From NCBI RefSeq assembly GCF_000003815.2, contig NC_049979.1:7662589-7726588 (forward strand): 64,000 nucleotides of DNA, in the 5' to 3' direction. Shown here one piece after another: positions 5,345 to 58,900 of this stretch. The stretch's first letter is position 1. Each line of letters begins with the position of its first letter. The notes beneath the pieces were generated by a model. It had not been told where the DNA came from. It ran no database searches and saw nothing but the letters and a program-made list of their open reading frames with translations. Made by a program: the position numbers and the translations under genes. The stretch is from Branchiostoma floridae (Eukaryota > Chordata > Leptocardii > Amphioxiformes > Branchiostomatidae).

Positions 5345-8300
5345 CTGGAGGAAAGGAGAAAACAAGTCTTGTCATTTGCCACCAATGCTGAGGACATGTT
5401 AGGAAGTAAAAATGACACATTTGAAATCAGGTACAAAATAAGCGCAGCTCTGAGAACATTCCCCAACTTCTGGGGCAACATTTTCTCACAATCTACAAAG
5501 AAATCATCCTCAACAATTCTTGTTAACAGGTGTCATTTGCTACCAATGCTGAGGACATGTTAGGTAGTAAAAATGCCTCATTTGAAATCAGGTACAAATG
5601 TATGCTTATAGACATTCCTTAACTTCTGGAGCAACATTTCCTCACAAAGAAATCATCCTCAAAACTTCACAATGCACAGAAAAACAGTGGAACCATTCTT
5701 ACAGTACCAGCACGGTAAACTTTACCGTAAATTACGGTGTGCGTAATCGTGAACACGCCGTAAATACGATCGTAATTACGGCCGTATTTACGGGGCGGTA
5801 TCACGTGGAAACCGGCCGGTAATATTCAGAATATTCATGTTTTGAACACCGTGTACACGGAATATTCATGAGAACGTCATTAATTATTAATCAAACAGCA
5901 TGATTTGCGGCAGAAATTTAGCGGCGCCTGACCCGGAGAGCGGGGTACCGCCGCATGCGTAACATAACTAGACTGTTTTTTAAGTACTTAGTAAATCGCG
6001 AGCCGATCTTTTGTGATTTTCCGAACAAAATGTAGACTGCATAGCAGAACAATCCTCATAACCATGTTCTCTTGTATGAATTGAAAGTATTTCTCGAAGC
6101 ATAAATACGTGTGTTCAAATATTATACGGAACCAGATACAACTTCACAATAAAAATGCTCCTGTTTGCCGAAAATATAACTCAACCGGTTTTCACCGGCG
6201 GGTTTGATATTGCCGCCGGGCATGATCAGCGATCGGGAACATACACCAGCGCGCGCTCGGAAAACCACCTTCGAATTTTGATAGGAATATCTTTAAGGTT
6301 CGACAAATACATATCTGGAATGGTGCAATTATTTTATAACTACTACGTCCTCGCTTCCTATTAAATATAAACGTCCAAAAATGCCATAGTGAGACACTTT
6401 TCTCCTCGGTATGTCACACAGTCGGCGTGTACACGCCGTAATTACGGCGTCACAGCCGTGTATACAGTTTTGTGTGGCGTTACAAAGTGGAAATGTTGGC
6501 AACTTTGGGGTTTTGAGTGGAAATATGAGGCCTCCATTGTTGAAATCGAAACTAATAGATGTTTTTGCGTGTTTAGTAGATGTTATAAGATACCGGACGG
6601 TAGAATTGTAGAAAAAATGGGTCTGACCCGTGCCCTCCCACCGCGACGCTAAATTTGATTGACACATGCGGCCGAGGCGCGGCTTCTTTGAGTTTGTCGG
6701 CATATTCAATTCTCAAAGATCGGGCCTGCGCGAACTGCACTTTAAGTCTAACAGCCCGCTATGGCAAAAATGCGCAATAAAGGTCTTCATTCATTCATTG
6801 TTACAACAATAAACACAGAGCTTGTTTTTCCGCCGTGTTTTTTTTTTCTTGGTTTATTCTACTTGATAGCGATATTAAGTACCGACGTATATATTTTGAA
6901 TATTTTGGAACGACATGTATCGTGATGACAAAGGCACGAAACTTCTTCTGATCTTCATATACATTAGCACATTTTATAAATAGCGATTTACCTAACATAT
7001 TTCCAACATTTGGAATAGATGATGGTCGATCGGGTAGCAGCAGAATGATGATGGAAAATCTGATATAAACTTACCTTCCAGGTTTTAAACGTTACATGTT
7101 GTGACGTAGTGTATATGTATATAGGAGTCCAGAGAATGGGCCCGGGGTCTTCAGTGTTCTCAAAAAGAGCTTTAAAAGTTTCACCGGAAATTCTGGGAAG
7201 TTCGCAATTACAGTGTAGTTGCAGATAATAAAATCAATAAACGAAGTTTAAAATGGGAATAGATCGTCACCACTGTTGACGGCGATCTTTTTTTTTTTAC
7301 AAGCGGTAGATTGTATATTTCGTTTTCGTTCAAGGGCTCATTCATATCCCCCCCCCCCCAAAAAAAAAACAGTTCTTGCAGCATGAATCGGAAAAAAATA
7401 ATTTCTTAAATATATGTACGATGTACTCCTTCCTGCTATCCTTACTGCTTATATCAATATTTCAAAATTAAGCGCTCGTGACAGTTATTGCAATCATATT
7501 GGTGTCAGTTGTTAAACCAGGACATAAGAATCTAGGATAGCTGCAAGGCTGAATGTATTCCCCGCAGTAAGTTTGCGTCGACTATCCGACGACCAGGAGC
7601 AGCCGTCAGCGTAATCTCCAAGCAGATTCCTCCGTGGCATAAAACAGTAACATAAAGCTGGGGAAGGAGTTTAGCCGACAGAGGAGTATAATTGCCCACT
7701 GCCGTCAGCGATGTTCCGTCCCAAGAGCTCATTCAGGAACAGGTAGGTCTCGTTGGCGGAGCTGCACCCTCGACGATCAGCAGTGTGCCAAGGAAGCCAA
7801 CGGATGGAAACCCGCATCCTTTTATTCTGGCTTAGAAATGTAGCTAGCTAACGTAAGTCTTAATACATAGTAAAAGTAAGTGTAATGTTAGTTACGACTT
7901 CACAACTTTGAACATGTACGGTTAGTTACGCTAACACAACATTGAACAGACAAAATACGATTAACAACAACATTAAAAACGCATAAGGATGAAAGTATGC
8001 TATGTTACTGAAAAGTATGTATTGATTTCGTTGGTCGACTGTCTGACGACCAGGAGCCGCCGTCAGCGATGTTCCGTCTCAAGATCTCCGCCAGGAACAG
8101 GTAGGTCTTGTTGGCGGAGCTGCACCCTCGACGATCAGCAGTGGGCCGAGGAAGCCAACGGATGGAAACCCAATCCCTTTAATTTATCCTAGCTTAGAAA
8201 AGTAGCGACGGATGTATAACTACATAGTAGAAGTACATATAATGTTAGTTACGTCAACAAAACTTTGAACAGATACACAGACAAAATACGATTAACAACA

Positions 8301-11300
8301 ACATTAAAAACACATAAGGATAAAAGTATGCCCTGTATTGATTTCGTCGGTCGACTGTCCGGCGACCAGGAGCCGCCGTCAGCGATGTTCCGTCCCAAGA
8401 GCTCATTCAGGAACAGGTAGGTCTCGTTGGCGGAGCTGCACCCTCGACGATCAGCAGTGTGCCAAGGAAGCCAACGGATGGAAACCCGCATCCTTTTATT
8501 CTGGCTTAGAAATGTAGCTAGCTAACGTAAGTCTTAATACATAGTAAAAGTAAGTGTAATGTTAGTTACGACTTCACAACTTTGAACATGTACGGTTAGT
8601 TACGCTAACACAACATTGAACAGACAAAATACGATTAACAACAACATTAAAAACGCATAAGGATGAAAGTATGCTATGTTACTGAAAAGTATGTATTGAT
8701 TTCGTTGGTCGACTGTCTGACGACCAGGAGCCGCCGTCAGCGATGTTCCGTCTCAAGATCTCCGCCAGGAACAGGTAGGTCTTGTTGGCGGAGCTGCACC
8801 CTCGACGATCAGCAGTGGGCCGAGGAAGCCAACGGATGGAAACCCAATCCCTTTAATTTATCCTAGCTTAGAAAAGTAGCGACGGATGTATAACTACATA
8901 GTAGAAGTACATATAATGTTAGTTACGTCAACAAAACTTTGAACAGATACACAGACAAAATACGATTAACAACAACATTAAAAACACATAAGGATAAAAG
9001 TATGCCCTGTATTGATTTCGTCGGTCGACTGTCCGGCGACCAGGAGCCGCCGTCAGCGATGTTCCGTCCCAAGAGCTCCGCCAGGAACAGGTAGGTCGAC
9101 TGCCCGACGACCTGGAACGTCCGATGGCGATGTTCCGACCCAAGAGAACAGGTAGGTCTTGATGCCGAGTTGCACCCTCGACGAGCAGCAGTGTTTCAAG
9201 GAAAAGGGCGGCCGACGAAAACCTAAATTCGTAACCTAGAAAAGTAGCTAATGCCGTCTAATTAATGGTCAATTTATCTAGAAATAGCTTATGACCAGAC
9301 ACATTATCCTATATATATTCATATTACAAGCATTATATGTAGTCAATTTATACGTACAAATAGTCCATTAATGCGAACCATACATGCCTGAAATAGTCCA
9401 CAGATCTATTTAATACTCCTTGAGAACTTCGCACGTAGCGATCTATTTGTAGTGGGAATATTACATCATGATCACTCCGTCCCCCATCCTTGAGTCGGTG
9501 ATATTGCTTTGTGCCAAAGTCCTTGGTCATACTTGAGTCAGGTACAGTTTGAATGAAAATTTACGCCTCGATTTACAAAACTCCATCTTTTGTGATGGTG
9601 TTTCCGTCTCTCTAAAATTAAAAAAAAAAAAAAAAACGTCTCAAAATACCCGACCAAGACTTTCATCACAATGCCACACCAAATTTAGCACCGAAAACTT
9701 GCGTCGTCCGGCTGCAAAACCTCCGATAAGTGAGCGTAGCCGGTAACTAGTATTGGACCAGTCTATTATAATAGGGGGAAACGTCACACATGGGGTGATT
9801 CTAAAGTTCATTGAAATAAACAAAATGCCAACTTAAATATTCCATAACGGTTGTTAAATGTTCCTACATATTCAAAGGAAGCTGGCCAAATTACATATCT
9901 TTTGAAAAAAAAGTTAATTTGACATTTCTTGATAGAATTGTCCCCATCTGCTACTATTAGAACGTCCCCTAAATCGTGGGAATCCCAGTACAGAACGTCA
10001 GAAGTTCCCTACATCCAAGTTGTACGGGGCGGCGGTCCTTTGATCTAGTATCATATGTGCCGGGCGCCGGCGACAAAATCAATCAATTTTGACAGCACTA
10101 GCTGTCTGACATTTCCGGAGAAACTAAAAACTGTAAAAGAAATCAAATTTGGACTTATACAAAAATGTACATTTACAAATGCAAGGATTTAATCTTTTGT
10201 GCCAGGTTCTGGTTACTGAAATAAATAAATCGTTTTTTATTATCCGTTTTATCGATTTTAGGTTTGAAACTGAAAGTCTCTCATTTATTTTTTATACACA
10301 AACAACACGTCTTTTGTGAGCCATATTTCAGGGTTCTTCAAACGCCAGCGACAGAACCTCGTTTTACTTTATACGCGACAAGTGTCAACTTATTTTTGCT
10401 ATCAGTTTTCCTCTTCGCTGATTGGCTGTCAAAAATGATTGAATTTGCGATCGGCAAAGTTTCAGATTGTCCGGCGCGGGCAGCACGATCTTCAAAAGGC
10501 CGCGATCTGCTTTCAATGTAATCAAGACGACACACCGTGGGAAAGTGTATATTTGACTTGTAGTGGCCATCTCGGAGCTGCTGTTTCGCGCTGGATGCAT
10601 CAAATCTCATATCATAATCTCTAGTTTAGTTTTATCCAGATCCCAGACGATTCTCCGATTTCTGGCTATTATTTGTTACAACGCTCAAATTTTAATCAAA
10701 TCTTTGGCTATATCAATTGCAATTTGAAGAGTTGTACAGAAAAGCTGTGTTGCTAAGGAACATGCGTGTTTGTTTAGACGTAAGGCCGGCGCTCGGTAGT
10801 AAGTCAACTTTTTTTACCTCGCGTTCAGCTGGCCGACACGGGTGGGCCGAAACATTGCATGTCCACTTTTGGTCAATTTTTGTCAAATCTATTTCCAACA
10901 TAAAAAAATTGTGATGCCGAGTTTTATTGCTTAGTTAGACAATGGTACATTTCAGGCGAGTATTAAAACTCTCTTCTAGACGCATGTTACTGTATGTGGT
11001 CCAGCGTAATAAATCTACGCTTTAACTCACCATGTTTATATAAAGATATATCACAAATTGCATCAGAAGGAACTTATTTTGTAATGAAAAATAATGCATA
11101 TTCATTGTGGGTCAAAAAGTTTTACAAAACCTGTTTAATGTGCCAATAATTCATGTGACATAAATTATGATAATGAGGTAAATTTCCAATATCCCCTTTT
11201 GCTGCATTTCCTACTGNNNNNNNNNNNNNNNNNNNNNNNNNNNNNNNNNNNNNNNNNNNNNNNNNNNNNNNNNNNNNNNNNNNNNNNNNNNNNNNNNNNN

Positions 11301-23300: not shown

Positions 23301-26300
23301 ATTGTGATATGTCATTATATGAATATCGTACTCAGCAACCTTAATTAGTGTCATTACTCAATACATTTGGTACCTACTGGCTGCAAATACACCTGATACT
23401 ACTGTAATTCACTTTGTCTTGTCGGTACCAAACTTTCACGGTCTGAGAAAATTTAACTTCTTCTCGGAACTAAATGTTCACGATGGCAGCATGTGAACAT
23501 AAAAAAAGTCTGTGAATTATTTGTTATCTGTAATGATAAGCTCACGTTACAATTGTCATAGTGAAAACAGTGAAAAAATCAGGAATTACAGTATTATCAT
23601 TATATAGTGTACAGGGCTGTTTCTGGGACCTGTCCCATAGTGCAATTTGCTTGTTGGGACAGAAATTTTTTTTTACCCCATCCATCCCAAAATTCTGAAG
23701 TTCATGACGTGAAACTATTGACAATGTATTTTTATGGGCTCCCAAACAATGACTGGGATGGAAAAATATTTAAGCCGGAGACAGCCCTGATACAAGAATC
23801 AAGTTTGTTGCAATTAATATGGAATGTAATGTATAATCATACTGAATATCGTGCATGCAGAAATAGAGAGTGGAACTACAAAGCTTTCAATAACATCATT
23901 CTATTTAAGAGGAAAAGACTGAAACCTTTTGCTGGGGGTGGTGAGGTGTCCATAGTAGTGGGAGCAGGGGGCTGTGATGGTATCACCCCTGAGTTCTCTA
24001 CCGTGGTCTCCTCTGGTACAGAGTCTACCTCCACCACACCCTGCTGGGGTACCTCCGCTGGTCTGTCTCTCGTGTGGGATACCTGGAAAGGGTAAGGAGA
24101 AATGTTATCCAAAACGTGTCAATGTTATCTTGTGCATCTTAAATAACAGCTCCTCAAAAACAAGTACATTCCATTTCACTTTGTATACATTGTCAATGAA
24201 TTTCTAATCTTTATGAGCATACAGATTGATGATTTAATGTTAGCAGCATATAAGAATCAGATTTTGCACAAAATTGAAATTAGCAATCTAATAGCATTCT
24301 TTAATGCCTTAGTCGCATATAATTGTTTGCCTGCATCCTAGTTAATCAGCAAGTCTGATAGCTTTTGTAAGTTTCCAAGTCGGCCTCAAGAATCATACAC
24401 ATTTTATATAGACTCTGTCATATTCAAATAACAATACATCAAAACACTTAACCATTACATGTACTTCGGACACACCTTACTCGTAACTCCTAACCAACAA
24501 GAATAATAAGCCCACCTTCAGGAAGTGTAGCTTCCCGGTGTAGGTGGCAGCACACAGCTGACCAGACCCTGAGCAGTGAGTCACATGTACAAACTTCTCT
24601 CCCTCCTGTGGCTTGAACTCTGCCAGGGGCTGGAAGGTCCCGGCATCAAACAGACACACACGCCCATCCTGTGTTGTAGCAGCAAGCTGACCTAGACCCC
24701 TGGTTGGTTGTATCACAAAATTTCATTGGCATTGCTTCATCCAGCTTCATTTACCAATCCTAATCTTTCTAGACCTATCAAGAACAGTTTGAGCATAGGA
24801 TACCACAAAAACACCTTCAGCTTACCCTTCCAAAATTGCAATAAATAGGACATGGGAACAGCCATGATCATAACAGGTACAGTTGTATAATGACTAAGTG
24901 AAATACCCTCTCTCATACATGCTGCTGAAGTTATGTTTAGAGACAACCTGCTGCTATTAACGAGGATACAATTAGAAAAGAATAGAGAGCTTGAAGCTTC
25001 CAGCTAGATGTGCAATTGTTAGGTGGGACAGATCGTTTGGCATAACATACCAGAGTGCTGCCACATACCTTGTGCCTGCAATGTTGGTGTTTTATGCCGA
25101 AAGGCGGTTTAATATACAGACACAGATGCAGAAGGTACCAAAAAATTGTACTGTACCTGATTTTCCTCTCTCTCCTGGGTTGATGTTCTGTTGCTCCCTC
25201 ATCATCCTCATCCTCTGATGCTGAGTTACTCTCGCTGTCCTCCCCGTGGAGGTCCAGGAAGTCCTGCGGCAGGACCGACACGAACGTGAGCACGTCCCGC
25301 AGGTTCCGCAACGTGTGCACCGCCACGGGATTCCCCACCACAGTCACCAACTCCTGTGTGAAGAACAGTTCATACAGCAGCAAGTAGCCAAACACCTCCT
25401 TTGGCTTGGCCTCCTCCTGAACAGAGGCAGCATCTTCTCCTGGTTTAGCACTAGCACCTTCAGGATGTTGGGCTGCCTTTACATCACAGCTATCCATGGC
25501 TTCTGCACCGTGTGCTTCCTTCTGACTTTCCTCCGGACCCTCCGCCTCCTTCATCTCCACATCCTCCGTTGTCACCTTGCTGGAAGAGTTTGCCCGTCTC
25601 ACCCTCTGAGCTTCTGTTGCTGTGACAACGACAACTATGTGCTTGCCATCCACAAGAGGGAGGATGGCGCTGATCTTAAATCTCCCCTCCTTCTTGATAG
25701 GCAGCTCAATGCATTGCACCATGCTCCCTGGTTTTATAGATGGAGTTTTCCCATCCGGAACATCTCCCTGTGGAGTACTTGGACTGGCCACCATCGCCAC
25801 AGGGGATGGCGTCTCCATGATGACCTCACCTACAACGGTACCTTCTTCTATCGGGTCATCAAGCAAGATGGGGTCTTCAAACTCAGAAATCTGGGACACG
25901 AAGAAGTCCTGTGCTAAACTCTGGTACAGGGAGGATCCTTTGCTACCACTACTACTACTAGGACCAGAGTTTTTCCTTGGCCTGAAGTTCTCTTCATCAA
26001 TCCCTGATATGTCATGCACCAAGAGGTATAGACAACTTGACTCTTCTTCTGGCAAACCAACAACTTTCTCTACCTTCAAGTCAACCTTGCTGGCTACTTC
26101 ATGTGGAGTTCTTCGTTGTAATGCTGCATTTTTTCGGTTCAAATCTTGAACAACACTAGACTTCCACAGAGAAAGACCTGATATCAAGCTGACAGGTCTT
26201 TTGTCCGAGTCTTTCTCTTTGGTGTCCAGACTCGGGTCACTTAGGTTGTTGAGTTGCTGGGGAACTGGAGATTCCGGGGTGGGGGAGTCGTCAGGGGCTT

Positions 26301-29300
26301 GAACAACACAGAGGGCTGTGACATGGATGTCGTCTGGGTGGAAGTGCACTAACTTACCTGTAGGCAGAATGGGACATAAATCAGTTTCAAACCAGATCGG
26401 AAGGAGCTTCTTAAAGCAAGTTAATAGTACTGCAGGTTTGGGTTTTAGTTTAGACATTTTTGCAGGTCTTAAAAGATCGCAAAATATTCTTGGGTATAAG
26501 AAAACAGACAAAATACAATGTAAATATTACAATATCCAGAATTCCTTGGATCCAAGTTATTTTTGGTGACATTTATTGAAGTTTAAAACTTTCCTACTCA
26601 AGACTGCCTGCTGTACATCCATCAGTCAAAACTAACCACTAAGTTGTCATCTCAGGTGATGAGGAACTGTTACAGATCACAAACACACTTACTAGGTGTG
26701 ACGAGGGGGAAAGAGGCTCCCGTGTCCAGATCGATTTCCATGATGTCACTCTGGCTATGTCTGGTCTCGCTGCTCTTAACCTGTCCGCCCTCAGTGCCCT
26801 GGGAAGGAGCCTCGGCCCCCTGGTTCTCCTGTCCAGGGTGAGGCCCGTTCCCATTGGTGTCCATGGATGGCTCTGTGCTGGCTTCGTCTATCTGCAGGTC
26901 GCTAGGTGATATTCGGCCCGCGGATGACCCAGGTACTGTGGCTGATGTTGACTTGGAGGCCACCTGTTGGTCACTGTTAGCACCAGAGCTGAAGGAAAAA
27001 GGGTGGCCTAGCATGAGTGTACTGTAACTGCATTTCTGTTTGCGAGGATTTGATTTCGCAGTAGCAGAAAAATGGAGTGTTTGCGGTGGTTTTAACTTTG
27101 TGGTGGCGTCATAGACTGTAGTCACATACTACATGACTATTGTATAATGGATAAATATTTGTGGTGGTTTTAAGTTCACGGTGAAGTAGCCACTACGAAA
27201 ACTGCGAACATAAAACCACCGCAAATGTTACTGCATTTACAGTAAACATATTTTTCATGTCATGCAACAGAAAAAATGGACCTTCTTACAGCTTTCCCAT
27301 TAGTTTCTTTTTCCCTTTAGTGACAATCACTTGCCTGTCACAAGTCTGTATTTATGCTACACTAACACTCTCTCTACTCTTCCCTCACTATCTTCACTGT
27401 CCTCCAGTCCTACATTCCTATTCTTTCTCCTTACGTCCCCCAAGTGTTTTGCACCTAAGCCCCTTCCCCACATACCTTGTGCCCTTGTCTTCCCCAGGTT
27501 TGTGCACCCAGGCCTCCAGGATCTTGCGTCTCTGAACCTGGCTGGCTGACAGGGTCTGGGTGACGAACGTCTGCTTGGGGTCCACGGTAAACTGCAGGGC
27601 CATCTTCAACTGCCGCGCCACATTCCACACACAGATGTTCCCATGCATGGTAGCTGTGGCCAGCAGACTTGGACAGGAGGAGTTACTGACTGCACAGATC
27701 TGGCAGGGAAAGGACACACATTAGGGACCTGTAACCAACATTCACAAAAAATCAAAACAATCTGTGACTACATGTACTTTTGTAGGAGTAAATACAAAAC
27801 CTTTCTTTCATTAAGTTATGCAAGGTACTTCAAAACATGGCAGGAATAAGTACAGATATTGTCAGGTCATGGAATGTCATCTCAGTTCTCAAACATGACC
27901 TACCTCTTCACTGCAGTCACTGTGGGACAGGGCGGGGCTTGTTGCCAAGGTGACCGACATTGGCACATTCTGTGTGTGCTCTCCCTTAACAAAGGGGCAG
28001 TTTGGGGAATGGCGTTCATGCTCAGACCTGGCAACATATTGAAATGGTTACTTTTTGCATGATCCCTTGAATTACATATCTTGAAGTTTGTTCCATCTAT
28101 GATGCTTACATCAATCTTACATGTATATGTAATTATCACATATTACAGAAGCAACAGATATTTTTCTTATTAAGAAATTAAGACAGAAGTTTACATATTG
28201 TTCCAAGACTACATGCTGTATCGCAATGTCAAGCTGATGAACATTACAAAGAAGTGCATCTATAGGCATAGCTGTCCTCAAGACTAATGCTACAGGGCAC
28301 AGTAGTTGTAATAAGTTGTATACTTCATATTTGTTTATCAAATAATCATGTTTGTGTAAAGATAATGTACGAAAAGACTGTCAAGCTGTGCAATTCAGCC
28401 CCTCGGGCAGCAAGACTGCTTTTAATTTGTCATACTTGTTTTGAACATTAAACCAGTCTACACACAGAGAGTATACTATGGTAATCATTCCCTATATTCT
28501 AATGGATATAACTGATGGAAGAAAGAAACCCATAGTGGTTAACTGCTGTGCCCAGAGTGACTCCATACTGACCAGGGTTCGTCTGTGGGCTCCCAGCAGA
28601 CCAGACAGACGCTGCAGGTGAAGCACATGGCACGGTCGTCCCGGCTGGAGGTGGGCTGGTGGTAGAACCCGGCCTGTGCCATGGCGTCTGGCAGGGCCCA
28701 TCTAACAACAGCAGGCAACGGCAGGTGAGATCTTTCTGTATTATGTCACTTAATGGACCCTTCCAGCCGAACGCCATATCGAGCAAAAATAAAATCCGGG
28801 CCTATTCTATTTTGAATACTTGGTCATTGCGGAATAGCGGAGGCAGCCAGTTCTGTCTTACTCGCACCGTTTTTGACCGAGGTGTTCGAAATAGAACATG
28901 ATCGAACAGGGGGCAGGGCTTATGGTGTTTGGCTGAAAGGATCCATTCATTGATCATGTTTAATTTACTTCTACCATTTTATTTAGCTGTGGCAGAATAT
29001 GATAAACTGAGACAGAAACCAATCTTACAAAATTCATTTTTCAAAGTTATACTGTCTGGAATAAAATAAATTTGAAAGTAGACACAGTCAAATGTGTACA
29101 AATGACCATCTCTACATAACGACTACCAGGCCAATGTGACAACTTTTTGACGGTCCCTTAGATACCTTGACAGAAGCAGTAAGAATCCTATCTATAATTA
29201 CCACCTGTAGACACACAGAGCTTATCAATGTCTTCTTGGGCAGTTTTGACTTCACGCATTTCAACGCACAGGTAACAAAATGCTAGAGGCCATCTTTACA

Positions 29301-32300
29301 AGTCAGCGCAATCTAGCTCACTTGTCCAAGACACGCCCTATTTTGCCAATATTAACTACTGAATAATTCATTGATGCCCACCTGTAGTTCATGTGTGGCC
29401 AGTTCTTGAATGTTTCTCTTCTGGCAGCCTCGCTGTACATGAGGGCCCTGTCCACCACCCCTGCTGTAGCACCCTCAGAGCTCCCTGCGGCTAACAGGGA
29501 AGACAGCCTCTCCACAATAGCAGAGGCTATGGGCAGGGCAGGACCCAGGTTGGTCCGCTTTCTCTCATTCACCAAGCCGCTGTAGACTGACTTCAGAGCA
29601 CAGTGGGGCAGCTCCAGACTCACACATGCCCACTAAGGAAGGAAGGGAGAATTTAGGTTAAAATTAGGGATGTACTATTTACATGTTCAATGGAGGCAAT
29701 TAAGAAAACCTTTTTCCAAACGGTATGTTTTATTCCAATTAACATCTCCAGGTATTCTCTTGTATTGGAAAATATTCCCGACTGACCCTCTCTGACCTTC
29801 TTATTTGATTAGACCTCCTTGATACGAAAATACAATGAACGACTGCATAATCAGTATGACACAGAAATTATAGAGGAAACCAGACATCTTTGAAACCTAA
29901 CATTAAGCAGACTCAACCATGTCTGAAATAGAACCCTAGAGCATTCTACCAATATCTAATTGCAAAAAAAAGCCAATGTCTAAATGCCTTAACTTTTGTG
30001 TAGTCAAGCAAAAATCAAATTCATGATGCCATGGTTCCAAGATCCACCTCCATGCAAGAGGACCAAATAAGTAGTTCTTAATATATGTACATTGTATAAG
30101 TATACTACCTTTCCAGTCAACAAACATTTACGAGTAATTTGAGGTCACCAACCTCTTTAAAAAATATAATACTGTTACCGTCTCCTTTCTTGTCACTTTG
30201 TAGAGCACGAATGAGGATACATTGACATGACAGTATGTAAGTATAATACTAGAGCTCCAGACATGCACAACCCTGTCATCATACTCACGGCTCGCTCCTT
30301 GCATGTCTTGTCAGGGAAAGTACACCTCTGTGAGGGAAACTTTCGCCTCACCTTTGCCTTTTTATTCTTCTTCTTCGGGGCAGCCTGCTGGCATTTATCC
30401 ACCGCCGACCTCAACTCCTTTTTCACCTCTGGCACGTAGTCTACCCCTCGCATATCCACACTCTCCAGACTCGCCAACAGCTGAGTCGCCTGTGATAAGG
30501 TCACATTGTCAACATACATACATGTAGAACTGTACTCTACAGGATGTTCTTCTTTAACTTTGGGCCTTGAGCAGTAGGGTTAACATGACAAGCTAGCACA
30601 GTGCGATTACCAGAGCGTGACATGGATTTTGGTACTGGTGGTCAAATTCATGTTTCTGCAGGAAGAATCTAGTTAATATGATGTGCTTTGTCGCTTAGCC
30701 TTTGTGGTGTACTGTGCTGAATATGTTGTAGCCCATTGTAAGGACCATATCATTGTTTATTGTTTATTTCTGTATACTGTAATTCCTGAATTTTTCAATG
30801 TACTGTTATGTTCACGGTTTTCACTGTGACGACTATAACGTGAACTTATCATTACTGATAACAAATAAATCACAGCCTTTTTAATGCGCACTTGTCACGA
30901 CAATGAACATTAAGTTCCGAGAACAAGTTGAATTTTCTCAGACCGTGAAAATTTGGTACCGTGAAGACGAAGTGAATTACAGTAATAAAATAATGTTTTG
31001 CTATTGTTGATAAGTGTGTGAAATCAGTAGGATAACACATAAATATCATAATGGTTACGCAAAATGTTCTGATACATGCAAGATAAACAAGAAATTTAAA
31101 CTATGACTCTTTTCATGTCATGATGTAAAACAAATTCCAGCCAATTGAAGCTGAAAAAGATGTCAATTGCAAACATGAAAACTGTTGCATTGGTAAGTTA
31201 CATTTATTAAGTACGAGGTGTAATTTTCATCATTCCTTATATTAGACAAAATCCTAATGGATTATTTATAGAAACTTGTTTTGTAGTATTGGCATTCAAC
31301 TTGAAGTATATTTCACGAAATTTGACATAATTAAAATAAGGGTGACATTCAAAATGAATCTTACCTCAGACAAGGGTAGCTCGACCTTGACAGTGTCCTC
31401 TGTCTTATCCACAAGTGTCTGAAGTGCCGTGTCAAGAAGCAGCACACCGTTCAGGTCTTTTCTCATACCAATGGCGAATCCGTCCGACATTAGCACCTTT
31501 TCAGCCAGGGGGAGGTACTCACATCTTAACCTGCTGCCAGGGCGAGCTGGGGAAGGTGAAATACAGACAAGTCTTCAACAACTACACCAAATCATGTTTA
31601 TTATTGTAATAAAGGATGGGTACTACTACTAGCAGGGATCAAAATACTTTTTTTTTTGCTACATGCAAAATTGCAAGTTGGCAAAAATCTTAAGTGCAAT
31701 TTGAAAAATCTACATGCAAAATAAATCTAGTCTATACTGCAATGATTTAGCCAGCTTCCATCATTCCGTCCTTTGGCGGAATTTTGCTGCTCAGGACAAA
31801 TAAGAATTTTGCTCATTCTGTCACTTTTGGCGGACAGAAATCGGCACATGAAAATATAGACAAAACTTGAAATTTTGGAATGATATCCACATAATCAGCA
31901 TGTAAGTTTGCAGCAAAGCCCAATTTGATTATTTGTAACACCTACTGACGACTGGTGACGATCCCTGGCAAAGGCACAGGGCCTCAGTATTTTTACTATA
32001 GGCCAGGTATTTTCAACATGCAAGATTGCAAGTTCAGAACATTTTTACGTGCAAATCTCAAAAATTACATGCAAATTGCAAGTTAAGTATGTGTATTTCG
32101 AACCCTGACTAGTTATGTGTTTTGGTGTGGTNNNNNNNNNNNNNNNNNNNNNNNNNNNNNNNNNNNNNNNNNNNNNNNNNNNNNNNNNNNNNNNNNNNNN
32201 NNNNNNNNNNNNNNNNNNNNNNNNNNNNNNNACCTGATAACATCCCCATGTGTGGTGTGGTGTGGTGTGGTGTGGTATGTTTTAGTGTGGTGTGGTATGG

Positions 32301-52970: not shown

Positions 52971-55900
52971 CTACTTTTCTAGTGAGCTGTAGATAGCTCT
53001 CATCCAGATAGCCACTGCCTGCGCCCCAGGGTCAGGTCTGGTCAGGCGATCTGTGCTGACATAGCTGGCACGACCAGCCCTCGCCGCCATGGTGGCTGTC
53101 CTCTGTGCTGAACTCTCTGCTGCCTGTAAATAAAGATGGTATCTCTTGAAGCTGCTTTACAAGTAGATGGCAGTTAAAGGAAAGACTTGAGCATCAAATA
53201 TGACGATGGAATAAAAAAATTGAAAGGCTATTTGAAGAAGATATAATTCACTGAGTATTAGGCCTGTTGTGAAAGTGTAAACATTTGTAAGAAATCTACA
53301 GTTCAGAAGAGGTTTCAAAAGATAATCACATGTTGCTGAGAAATTCACCAATGTCTAATGTAACAAGTGCTACTAGAGTTTCAACATACAGGGTAGAACA
53401 GAGTAAGTTAGCCATTACCTCCACAGCTTTCTGTAGAGTTGGCATGCTATCAGCAGTTTCTTCTTGCAGTGCCTTCAGGACTTCAGTGGCTGCATGAAGA
53501 GGATCCAGCTGCATAAAAAAGTGTGTCATTCTTATGAACTTTGTATATTTTCTCCAGAAAAACTTGATTACCAGAAACGATAAACTGATTTTCTGCCAAG
53601 TCAATGTAACTCCCTCAAATGTACCATTTGATTCATTTTTCTTCATAAGAAATTACTCAATTATGATACTAATTGAGTATCGGTAACATACCATTGTTCT
53701 GTCACCTGGATCAGCACCTCCATACCTGATAATGAGGAAAGGAAAATAATGTTTCTGTAGCAACCTTCAGAAATTCAATGTATCACTCTCACTCTGCATT
53801 ATAACGCAAGTCTGACAGTCAAAAACATACCACCATCACTGAATTTTATCTTGTGAATTATCCATAGTTTATGCTATCTCTGTGTATAATTATTTCCAAC
53901 TTCTTAGTTCATTGCCTTGTAGTGGTCTAATGATCTTGCTCAATCTCGTGAAAAAATTACTGTAAATGCAGAAATGTTTGCGGTGGATTAATGTTCGCTC
54001 TTTTCGCGGCGGCCGCATCACCACGAATTTAAAACCACCGCGAACATTTTTTAATAACAGTAAGAGACTACAATGCATGGTGCTACCACGAAATTAAAAC
54101 CACTTTGAAAAGTCCATTTTCCCGCTAATGCGAAATTAAATCCCCGCGAACTTAAATGCATTTACAGTACCTTTAAAAAGCTGTGTTTCTAGCTGGTGTA
54201 ACAACTCACCTGATGATGGATGCTACACCAGCCTTCATCGCAGCGGTCCAGCTAGCAGGAGTGACAGACGTCATCACAGACTGTGCACCGGCAGTCAGGA
54301 ACAGGCTGTACAGCTACAGAGTGAGAAGATAATTGCTACCTCATCATGTGTGTGAGTTGTTCCGTATGATTCTTTTTGTTTGTTTGAACCTTTGTTTATT
54401 CATAAAAGCTCACATTGGCCTGCAGACCACTTTTCATTGAGATCATGAGGGAAGAGGCAAGGGTCAGACAAACTATACACATCAGTTTACATCATTTAAA
54501 GTCCTAATGAGTCTTCTAAATTTATCTACACAATTTTACATATTACAAAATACATAATGGTGAGAGCTGCTACATGATTCAAGTCTGTTAATTTCGGTCG
54601 TCGTTTCCATTACTTTACGAGTGTCTTAAAGGAGGCCAGAGTTGGGGCTGTGTGTATGTCTGGTGGTAGACTGTTCCAGATGTTCGATCCACAGTAGGCG
54701 ATGGCTCTTCTGAAGGTATCATGGACTTAAAATGATAATCTGCACTAAACAACAGTGTAGATGTAAAGATTCTTCTCTGTACGTCGATGAAGGTTAGACA
54801 TCCAGGTAACAAGATAGGCCAAAAAGTAGTTACTCAAGTCAAAATCACATCCAGTTGCTTGAGTAACTGCTTTTGGGCGTATTCTTCTCTGTACTTTATC
54901 AAATTTCCCCATCTCATGTGTCTCACCCCTCCCGAGGCTCCCCCCATGCTCCTCTCCACGATGGTGGCCATCTCCTGCAGCAGGACAGCAGGAGTCTGGC
55001 ACGGCAGGCCGGGGGTGTCAGCTGACCCAAGGGCTGACAGGATGGCTGGTGAACAAGAGAGAATGGTCAGATACATACACGCATGTAAGTAAAATCAGGA
55101 ATTCTTTCTTGATATGTTTTCTTGACACCAATGTGAGCACATATCCAACTGTCTACAGTTACACAATTGCATACACTGATAATTTTATTGGCCTCATAAG
55201 CCCTACCAAAGATTGCCATCCCTTTCCAACTATAACACCAACAATACTTATTGTAATTCACTTTGTCTTCCCAGTACCAAATTGTCACGGTCTGAGAAAA
55301 TTCAATTTGTTCTCAGAACTAAATGTTCACGGTGAATGACTTATTTGTTATCGTCACCAAGATTAATTATTTGTTATCGGTAATGATAAGTTTACGTTAC
55401 AGTCGTCACCGTAAAAACTGTGAACATATGAGTACATTGAGAAAAATCAGGAATTACAGTACCCTTAGCTCCTTTGGCCAGCGTGCTGCCACAGTCCCCA
55501 TCTCCACAGGCCCGGTCAAGGTCATTCAGCTGTTCCTCTGCTGTCATCAGAGAGTTGCAGACAGCAGACACAACACGGAAGATCTGCTGGGCTGTGTCTG
55601 TGAGTACAAGAAGTCAACTTTGCTTTCAAACTGCAGTCTTTTCACTCCTGTGTACCAAAGGCCAAACATTAAGCTTTACTTTCCTTCTGTGTAAATGTCA
55701 GAACAATTGCCAGCAAGACTGTAGGTACAGTTATGTCCGTATTCAACACAGGTAGTTTTTCATTTGAATGCTCTAAATTTCTGCCAAATTTTAGTGAAGG
55801 CTACAGGGTAGTAGAGCTTGGAGAAATGGCAATCTTTGAGAAATGTAAAACCTACCTTTGTCGACCTTTGTGGCACCTGCAATTACGGTTGCTGCTTGCT

Positions 55901-58900
55901 GAGTGTCAGTTGAGAGCTGCACCCTTGTCCTGGTGGTGCGCAGGGTGCCCGTACTGGGGGAGGGGCACATGGGAAACCAGGCATGAGCTGTGGTCTGAGC
56001 ATCTGGGGGAAGAGCCAGCAGGTTTGTCACTAAAACTTTCACAACTCTCCACAAACTTTAACTCAGTAAGTATAGAGTAACTGATGGTGGAGCCATGATT
56101 CATCACGCGCCCCACTTGCACAGGCTATTATTGAACTTGGACCTGGCATGGGCCACTTCAACTTGCAATTCAAATAACTGCAGACACACACCAAGACAAG
56201 CAAACAGACAGATCAATCAGCAGACATACTTAACTTATAGCCTGGATACCATCCTCCATTGAAACTGCTGGCTCAATCTTTTCACTTGCTAACAACCGAT
56301 GTAGGGGTATATTTATAGGTAAGATAAAGTATGAGTTTAAAGATTGTAGAATTTCCGTTTGTTTATAATTTAGTACAAAGAAAGAAAGTCCTGTACCCAG
56401 ACAGCGGCGCCTGGTGTCATCCAGTCTCAGCAGGGTCAGGGACATGCCTGCCATTTCCTGTGACGTCACAAACGGCCCCACATACGTCCTCTCCACAGAC
56501 ACACCGCGGGCCTCTGTTCAGAGGTTTGGAAAATGTACCATTTAGAATAGCCTGTGTGTAACATCCCAATATTCCAAACAAATGGTAGAGTCCGTCACCC
56601 CCTTCGTTCCGAATATTGGGATGTTACATGTGTTTACACAATCTCTCGCTGGCTGGAGTTAATGTAGGCCCAGCCACTAGAGATGCTATTATAGTTAGGC
56701 TTTCAAGCTTGGCTCGAGCGGGAGCTCGACCAAAGTAAAGTAAGTAAGTACATTTAGAACAATCCTTGAACTACATAATATACATACATATATGCATATT
56801 CTTACTCTATTAGTTTCTCTATTAGAGTTGAAGCATACACAAAGTTCTGCTTCCAGTATTCTCCATCGTGCATCCTGTCAGTCATGACTTTCCCATTTAA
56901 ACCTGAGTTGCAGCCTCGATCAGTTTCTTTAAGGCAAGGTTGGGTCGGCCCACTTTCCTTGGAAGAATTACTGCGGGGGCAGTATTGTGTGTATATGACC
57001 AAAACAGTTGTACACTATCATGAAAGTAAGTCTGAGTTGGTAAATTGCAGTTTGACATTTTGCTGTCATCTCTGTCATCACAAGCTATTGTTGGATGATG
57101 GCTTTATATACAGATCTAGTTTACTTTTCAACCTTAAGAGAGTTACTTTTGGAGAGATTTATCTGACAAGGTTGAGCGAAGGACATGGAACGTCAAGACT
57201 TACCCAGGTACTTGATGGCATCTCTGGCTATGATATAGAGCTCCAGGTACGCAGTAGACCCCAGATTATTCACTAGCAGTGCCACACTGTCCCCTTGTGT
57301 TATAGGAAAGGAGCCAGAGTCAACAACATCATAGTGTGGGCCAATGTGTTTCTAGCCTATAATATGTGTATCACAAAAGCTGCAGGTAATGTTGGCAATG
57401 ATAAGCAATGCAGTACCTTCACAAACAGAAAGGAGTGCTAGTTATCTATTAATATATGGGTATAACTCACCTTTCTTCACTTCAATACGGCTGGTGTTGT
57501 CTGGGTTGGTCATGTGAGCGAGTACTGTTTCCACTACCTTTTCAGCTGTATCCATCTACAGAAGATTCATGTCAAAAATACATCTGCTTGTATTCTGGCA
57601 CTAGCAATATAAACAGACATTGAATAAACCAAGATGTCCCAAATTAGGAACCAATTTAGGAATGATGTTCCTACCTTCATTCTTCCCACACCTGCCTCAC
57701 CATGGACACCTAGGAGACAACAATGGTTCATCTGAATGTAAAAACACAATATTGCCCCTATAAAAGCTTCCTTGTCAGATCTATCATACTGAGGAAGAAC
57801 AATTTACTTTTCCTATGGAATCATGTATTATAGTCATAGGTTAGGTTTTTGAAGAAAATGTCAAGCTGACCAGAGGCAGTTTACCTAGTCCAAGCTCAAT
57901 AGTGTCCTGTGGCACCTGGAACATAGGCCCTGACCCAGGCACACTGCAGGGTGACAGGCAGACCCCCATGGTACCTGTAGGAAAATAAACATATCTAAGC
58001 TATCTACTTGTGCATTAAGTTCATAGATGGGTCTATGTACACTTTGACATTACTGTTCTTTTTTTTTGTGGACAAATCTCGCCACTAGCCTGGGTACCAG
58101 GCTACCTCATTACAGCTGCAGCCTTAAATCATCTACCCCCAGTCACAACTTACTACCCCACCAGTAATATGTACGATGAAGTATGTATAGCATACTGACC
58201 CATACTGCTTATTGTGTTCTTCACTGTTTCCACTATTTCAGCCAAGGATTTGCCCTCCTCAGATAAAGCTCCTGCAATCTGAATAAAAGCAATACAAAAT
58301 ACAAATGAGCAGAAAATACAGCATACTTTTATCTACATATACATACATTTTGTATTATATAATCTACATATTCCTTTTTGAAACTGTAGCTTGCACGTTT
58401 ACTGATGTGGCCCTCACATTGTTCCTTCCTTCTTTCCAAATGCATCTGTCCTGCTTATCATGGAAGCTCATCTGTGTTGGTAGTAGTCAAAGTACAATGC
58501 TAAACTTTCTTCTAACACAAATGTATACATGGATCAAATTTTCAATGATTCCTTCAGGATCAATATTGACCAGTCACTTCCAAACATAAACTCGCGAGAG
58601 TTGCAACTGTCCTGAGCATTTTACTCACCTTTTGAACAAACACTGTCCCTGCCAGTCCCCTTCTCCCAGCTGTCTTGTCCTTACTGGAGACAGCGCAGTC
58701 TTCTCCTATACACACCATCTCCACCTGGAGGCCCTCTGCACGCGCACGCTCCACTGCAATCCCAAACGTCAGCCGGTCTCCAGTGTAGTTGGTAACTAGC
58801 ACAATGGCTCCAGCTGAAGCGAATAACGAGAATGATTAATTAATTGATATACTGTGATAGTAGGGAAAGTGATGCGAAAGTTTTTAGTATAGATACTACA

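Follow-up and report, generated by a model that had tools for sequence, protein, structure and literature searches.

A MITE within the exon 12 splice donor of lancelet TKFC: probable conversion to a weak GTACTG donor, with the same donor in other genes

The window considered here, a stretch of 64,000 nt of Branchiostoma floridae DNA, carries on its minus strand a gene for triokinase/FMN cyclase (TKFC), recognizable from Dak1 and Dak2 domains in one protein with a GDGDCG motif. The gene is otherwise intact: it has 17 coding exons, which give an open coding sequence of 589 aa when a GTACTG donor is used at the end of exon 12. The adjoining gene we take to be tubulin-cofactor-like. Elsewhere in the window (7701-9097) there is a tandem-like duplication of two slightly overlapping 723-bp stretches that are 99.6% identical. 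The human TKFC gene, as outlined in PMC11506722, has 18 exons with the open reading frame in exons 2-18, and on that outline its coding exons equal those of the lancelet gene in number. The part of the lancelet gene that concerns us is as follows.

55463..55597, minus strand: coding exon 12 of TKFC (135 nt), entered and left in phase 1, with the GDGDCG Mg-ATP motif
55046..55462, minus strand: TKFC intron 12, including the element
54927..55045, minus strand: TKFC coding exon 13, continuing G|CC in phase

The exon 12-13 junction is free of gaps in an alignment to the bacterial dihydroxyacetone kinase 1un9. Skipping of exon 12 is in frame, with a loss of 45 aa that include GDGDCG, and reading through into the element leads to a stop after 68 nt. 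In the human protein, by the same outline, the L domain is required for FMN cyclase activity, and the K domain by itself is an inhibitor of MDA5 (PMC11506722). By this comparison, an exon-12-skipped lancelet form would be expected to have no kinase activity and to retain the K domain.

The exon 12 donor is where a miniature inverted-repeat element (MITE) has inserted. The features at the insertion, and the two relatives of the element in the window, are:

55457..55462, minus strand: present donor GTACTG, +1 to +6, in which +4 to +6 are the MITE's first three bases
55460..55461, unstranded: TA target duplication on the exon side, the same bases as donor +2/+3
55251..55459, unstranded: MITE copy of 209 bp, with ends CTGTAATTC / GAATTACA(A)
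55249..55250, unstranded: TA target duplication on the intron side
55246..55248, minus strand: displaced donor bases AGT, the putative ancestral +4 to +6
30777..30982, unstranded: second copy of the family, TA-flanked
23402..23591, unstranded: third copy of the family, TA-flanked

On the minus strand the junction reads ...GCTAAGG|GTACTGTAATTC...GAATTACAATAAGTATTG, where the element end comprises the bases from CTG onward. The flanks joined without the element and with a single TA give AAGGGTAAGTATTG, and the empty-site junction thus becomes AAGG|GTAAGTATTG. The preliminary description had placed the insertion of a MITE in the TA at +2/+3, with GTA kept, CTG now at +4 to +6 and a GTAAGT donor recovered upon removal of the element and one TA; it had also argued that the phase to exon 13 requires the cut at AAGG|GT. 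All of this agrees with the present reading: TA flanks lie on both sides and the ends match in the three window copies, the minus strand reads AGG|GTACTG, the joined flanks read AGG|GTAAGT, and the open 589-aa model has exon 12 ending in phase 1. The same description had the bases AAGT displaced 210 bp into the intron. The shift into the intron stands, whereas the details need correction: only AGT was displaced, because the extra A is part of the TA duplication, and these three bases have moved by 211 bp (209 plus the TA).

The element has terminal inverted repeats and a TA target site duplication, and is short and present in many copies (209 bp; 784 candidates, of which 40 were scored, all 40 matching; 466 exact matches to one end); its non-coding status is taken from its length. 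The TA duplication would suggest a Tc1/mariner-like element. Amphioxus MITEs described under the name LanceleTn are reportedly short and TA-flanked with short inverted ends, and by that description the TKFC element is like them. The two window relatives have diverged from the TKFC copy, with matching ends, and TA flanks and terminal inverted repeats are present in all three copies, the TKFC copy having a single mismatch in its repeats. The end motif has nine matches in the window at up to one mismatch, six of which are exact; shuffles average 3.0 matches, and none of 100 reaches nine. In a set of 40 further copies, 26 retain the exact end motif and its TA at one end and 26 at the other. At its last base (window 55251), the TKFC copy has an A in place of the family's G, and as a result the acceptor-like end TTACAG reads TTACAA. 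The change would fit avoidance of a ready acceptor and may equally be due to chance, given 19 changes in 208 positions. The same intron holds a 16-bp match to the element end at 55088-55103, with one mismatch (E 0.44), which may be a degraded remnant or coincidental. There is also a repeat pair in the window (53957-54170 and 27019-27245) of about 220 bp and 73% identity; the copy in TKFC intron 14 (53957-54170) begins TACTGTAAA, and a donor hit by such an element would become GTACTG too.

How strong is the present donor? By a donor matrix, it scores -2.36 vs. 6.26 for the reconstructed GTAAGT, the comparison that the preliminary description had called for, and its duplex with the U1 5' end is worth -5.9 instead of -11.9 kcal/mol. 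Of the window's 8026 GTs, 25% score at least as high. Within exon 12 and intron 12 the present donor is outscored by eight, three of which lie in the intron's first 67 nt, and each of the eight is either out of frame or past the read-through stop; across exon 12 and the intron up to that stop, the present donor is the top-scoring GT in frame. The element may also bury the donor: the predicted cost of opening it is 7.28 kcal/mol, the third highest of 16 donors (range 1.66 to 10.19), compared to 3.99 for the empty site. At +4 to +6, no base has been reverted by mutation. Weak donors are nothing out of the ordinary here: exon 12 does not have the weakest donor of the gene, which by the same matrix is that of exon 10 (TGG|GTACAG, window 56391-56396, minus strand; -3.55); no second element end faces that donor in the window at up to one mismatch. 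Donors with neither +4A nor +5G number two of 16 in TKFC (exons 10 and 12), none of five in the neighboring gene and one of five scored in a TKFC paralogue.

The paralogue is a second TKFC-like gene, located 34.9 Mb along the contig that carries TKFC (G000:C1:34907900-34927800; L050, L051). It has an intron after ...GAK, in place and phase as in TKFC, with the donor AAG|GTACAT and the next exon AG|AGATCCTG, and by-eye reading found no copy of the element at this corresponding donor. Since the paralogue has the intron without the element, the intron predates the insertion and was not created by it. The paralogue has several weak donors (GTACGA, GTACAT and GTCTGT). If it is functional, this intron position tolerates a GTAC donor. 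As a paralogue and not an orthologue, the gene bears on the age of the intron and provides no test of a GTAAGT ancestor.

The age of the insertion can be approached from the divergence of the TKFC copy. Compared to the majority sequence of 40 others, made up of 38 scored copies and the two in the window (40 of the 784 candidates were scored), it differs at 19 of 208 positions (9.1%), or 13 of 186 outside CpG, which makes it 33rd of 41 when counted from the least diverged. The closest of the 39 other scored copies, from the 784 candidates, are 89-90% identical. Amphioxus heterozygosity is given as 3.2-4.2% (PMC12500494). Set against this heterozygosity, the divergence of 9.1% makes it probable that the insertion is old and fixed; provided that the majority is close to the source sequence, its age would exceed that of the average allele split several-fold. 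The estimate is subject to opposite biases: sampling the hits closest to the TKFC copy would make the insertion appear too young, and a hidden subfamily would make it appear too old. The assembly contains no second haplotype with an empty site, the DNA of exon 12 having a single match, and a protein search of the assembly with exons 12-13 matches only TKFC and the paralogue.

The conversion is not confined to TKFC. In the 513-Mb genome, 27 of the 466 exact matches to one element end are preceded by GG, a count that covers this end and leaves out copies with the opposite end, GGTACTGTAATTCACT. The far end could be located, at up to four mismatches, in 22 of the 27. The loci were checked for upstream open frames of at least 35 codons (all 27), for Pfam matches (ten peptides from ten loci) and for downstream frames (eight loci). 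Besides TKFC, three copies lie at phase-consistent exon ends, and all three donors now read GTACTG. One is in methionine synthase (L058; AAG|GTACTG), where the joined peptide and 4ccz can be aligned over the junction with no gap. Another is in an inturned-like gene (L064; AAG|GTACTG), where a longin-like domain is below the Pfam cut-off by itself and clears it once the next exon is added. The last is in an unnamed gene (L061; CAG|GTACTG) with the next exon in phase, whose peptide has no Pfam match. A fourth converted donor is probable at a CRAL_TRIO_2 gene (L069), where the coding end is at the element; its next exon was not found in the downstream frames. An HLH stretch that ends at the motif (L072) is an uncertain case, as neither the far element end nor a next exon was found there. 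No exon end was established for the remaining 21 of the 27 copies, where short exons may escape the listing of open frames.

The same join of flanks suggests that the donors before insertion were GTAACT in methionine synthase, GTAAAG in the unnamed gene (far end with four mismatches) and GTACAT in the inturned-like gene. Among the 22 GG-preceded copies with a located far end, GTAAGT is restored by the join in TKFC alone; as a control for chance, AGT occurs at the far end in one of the 22, again only TKFC. With these reconstructed donors scored as well, the cost of conversion is largest in TKFC. In an anoctamin gene (L006 1494-1708, G000:C6), the same MITE family sits at donor +6/+7 and GTAAGT is intact. 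The pattern GTAAGTACTGTAATTC, read by eye, occurs at four sites genome-wide: this anoctamin donor with its element, a coding-looking end followed by non-element sequence, a site antisense to a coding stretch and one that looks non-coding. Phase-verified donors account for three of the 26 GG copies outside TKFC; of the window's 414 GGTA sites, 14 or more (a hand count) serve as donors in the two modeled genes. We do not claim that donors are targeted, because the excess is small and the baseline is a lower bound.

We consider it likely that the GTACTG donor of TKFC is weak but working, made by an old and fixed insertion that rebuilt GTA, and that the same conversion has taken place in at least three other genes. 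On this view the ancestral donor of intron 12 was GTAAGT, and a TA-targeting MITE entered at its TA. The duplication of TA would have rebuilt GTA, and the first bases of the element, CTG, would have replaced +4 to +6 alone. With AGG|GTACTG used at the unchanged cut point, the protein would be unaltered, and splicing may leak, either by skipping of exon 12 or through cryptic donors carried by the element. The sequence itself shows the insertion, the duplication, the intact coding sequence and the recurrence at phase-consistent exon ends; the ancestral donor, the fixation and the use of GTACTG in RNA are inferred. The preliminary description had left two outcomes, a weak GTACTG donor that works or an allele that mis-splices. 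The former is favored by the age, the intact coding sequence, the three other converted genes and the donors without +4A and +5G in the gene and its paralogue; the latter was not supported. Recurrence in an assembly is no proof of function.

The insertion could instead have left a broken or leaky allele, in which exon 12 is skipped or cryptic donors are used, and which is a polymorphism in one haplotype. The drop in donor score and in U1 pairing, the increased cost of opening and the frame-neutral skipping that removes the GDGDCG motif are all as expected of such an allele, but the copy divergence suggests an age well past that of ordinary allele splits, the coding sequence on both sides is intact and the GTACTG donor is common to three other genes; we regard this possibility as unlikely. 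Far less probable, in our view, is that the hairpin of the MITE brings GGGUA beside the displaced AGUAU, so that U1 would read them as one site. The element does fold better than all 200 of 200 shuffles (z -4.56), seven pairs of the terminal repeats form with a probability of at least 0.997 when folded within 400 nt of sequence, and both donor halves could be opened for 3.8 kcal/mol. However, the predicted energy with U1 on both halves is -102.9 kcal/mol vs. -104.0 with U1 on the near half alone, and the gain over the unbound state is about 5 kcal/mol either way, compared to 12 at the empty site. In cofolding, the 12 positions most paired to U1 include no far-half base, an assay that discriminates poorly, as it misses many ordinary donors and the empty site. 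Strong folding is also common to another copy (z -3.49 and -3.30), and the third copy folds more weakly (z -1.74; 11 of 200 shuffles as good).

Least credible of all is that the element created the intron, as introners do, or that it is a stwintron, a nested intron that leaves before splicing of the outer one. Introners (PMC9860276) and donor-split stwintrons (PMC9024468 and others) are both described, and copies with intact ends read TTACAG|TA in this orientation, which is acceptor-like. An introner is at odds with the paralogue's intron, of the same place and phase and without the element: the insertion itself did not create the intron. Likewise, a stwintron calls for an inner intron that, once removed, leaves the outer donor restored and in frame, whereas excision of GTACTG...ACAG, by reading of the sequence, would consume one exon G and shift the frame, and the terminal CAG is CAA in the TKFC copy, with the loss of the acceptor AG. 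The nested intron was set aside on grounds of phase.

Transposon insertions can alter splice sites, and here too a mobile element has changed the sequence of an existing site. The present case differs in that the TA duplication rebuilds GTA, the donor being converted instead of deleted, and in that the same GTACTG is found in at least four genes. Introners are DNA elements, some with terminal inverted repeats and target site duplications, whose insertion supplies splice-site bases (PMC9860276). The TKFC element also contributes such bases, but its intron pre-existed and extends past the element, and just half a donor was replaced. The resemblance to donor-split stwintrons [D1,2], as these are outlined in PMC9024468 and PMC12403724, is that an inserted sequence interrupts the outer donor; in TKFC, however, the break is between +3 and +4, and there is no frame-preserving internal intron. 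In terms of donor classes, the loss of +4/+5 shifts the TKFC donor away from the GURAG class. The other three converted donors (AAG or CAG followed by GTACTG) fit AG//GUNNN, whereas TKFC has GG and not AG before the cut and so fits both classes poorly. No earlier report of this case was found among the titles and abstract openings of the part of the literature covered.

A broader proposal would be that the element serves as a donor-converting cassette, its insertions at G|GTA yielding a working GTACTG class across many genes, aided by the hairpin or the element ends and with skipping as regulation. We hold this to be quite doubtful. If it were true, one element would have made a recognizable class of transposon-ended donors, and exon skipping would be a new regulatory output. 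In effect, nature has repeated one experiment, an identical exchange of three bases at identical positions of the donor, in several unrelated genes. It bears on how a mobile element may enter a splice site without killing the gene, and on how much of the metazoan donor beyond GTA is dispensable for splicing.
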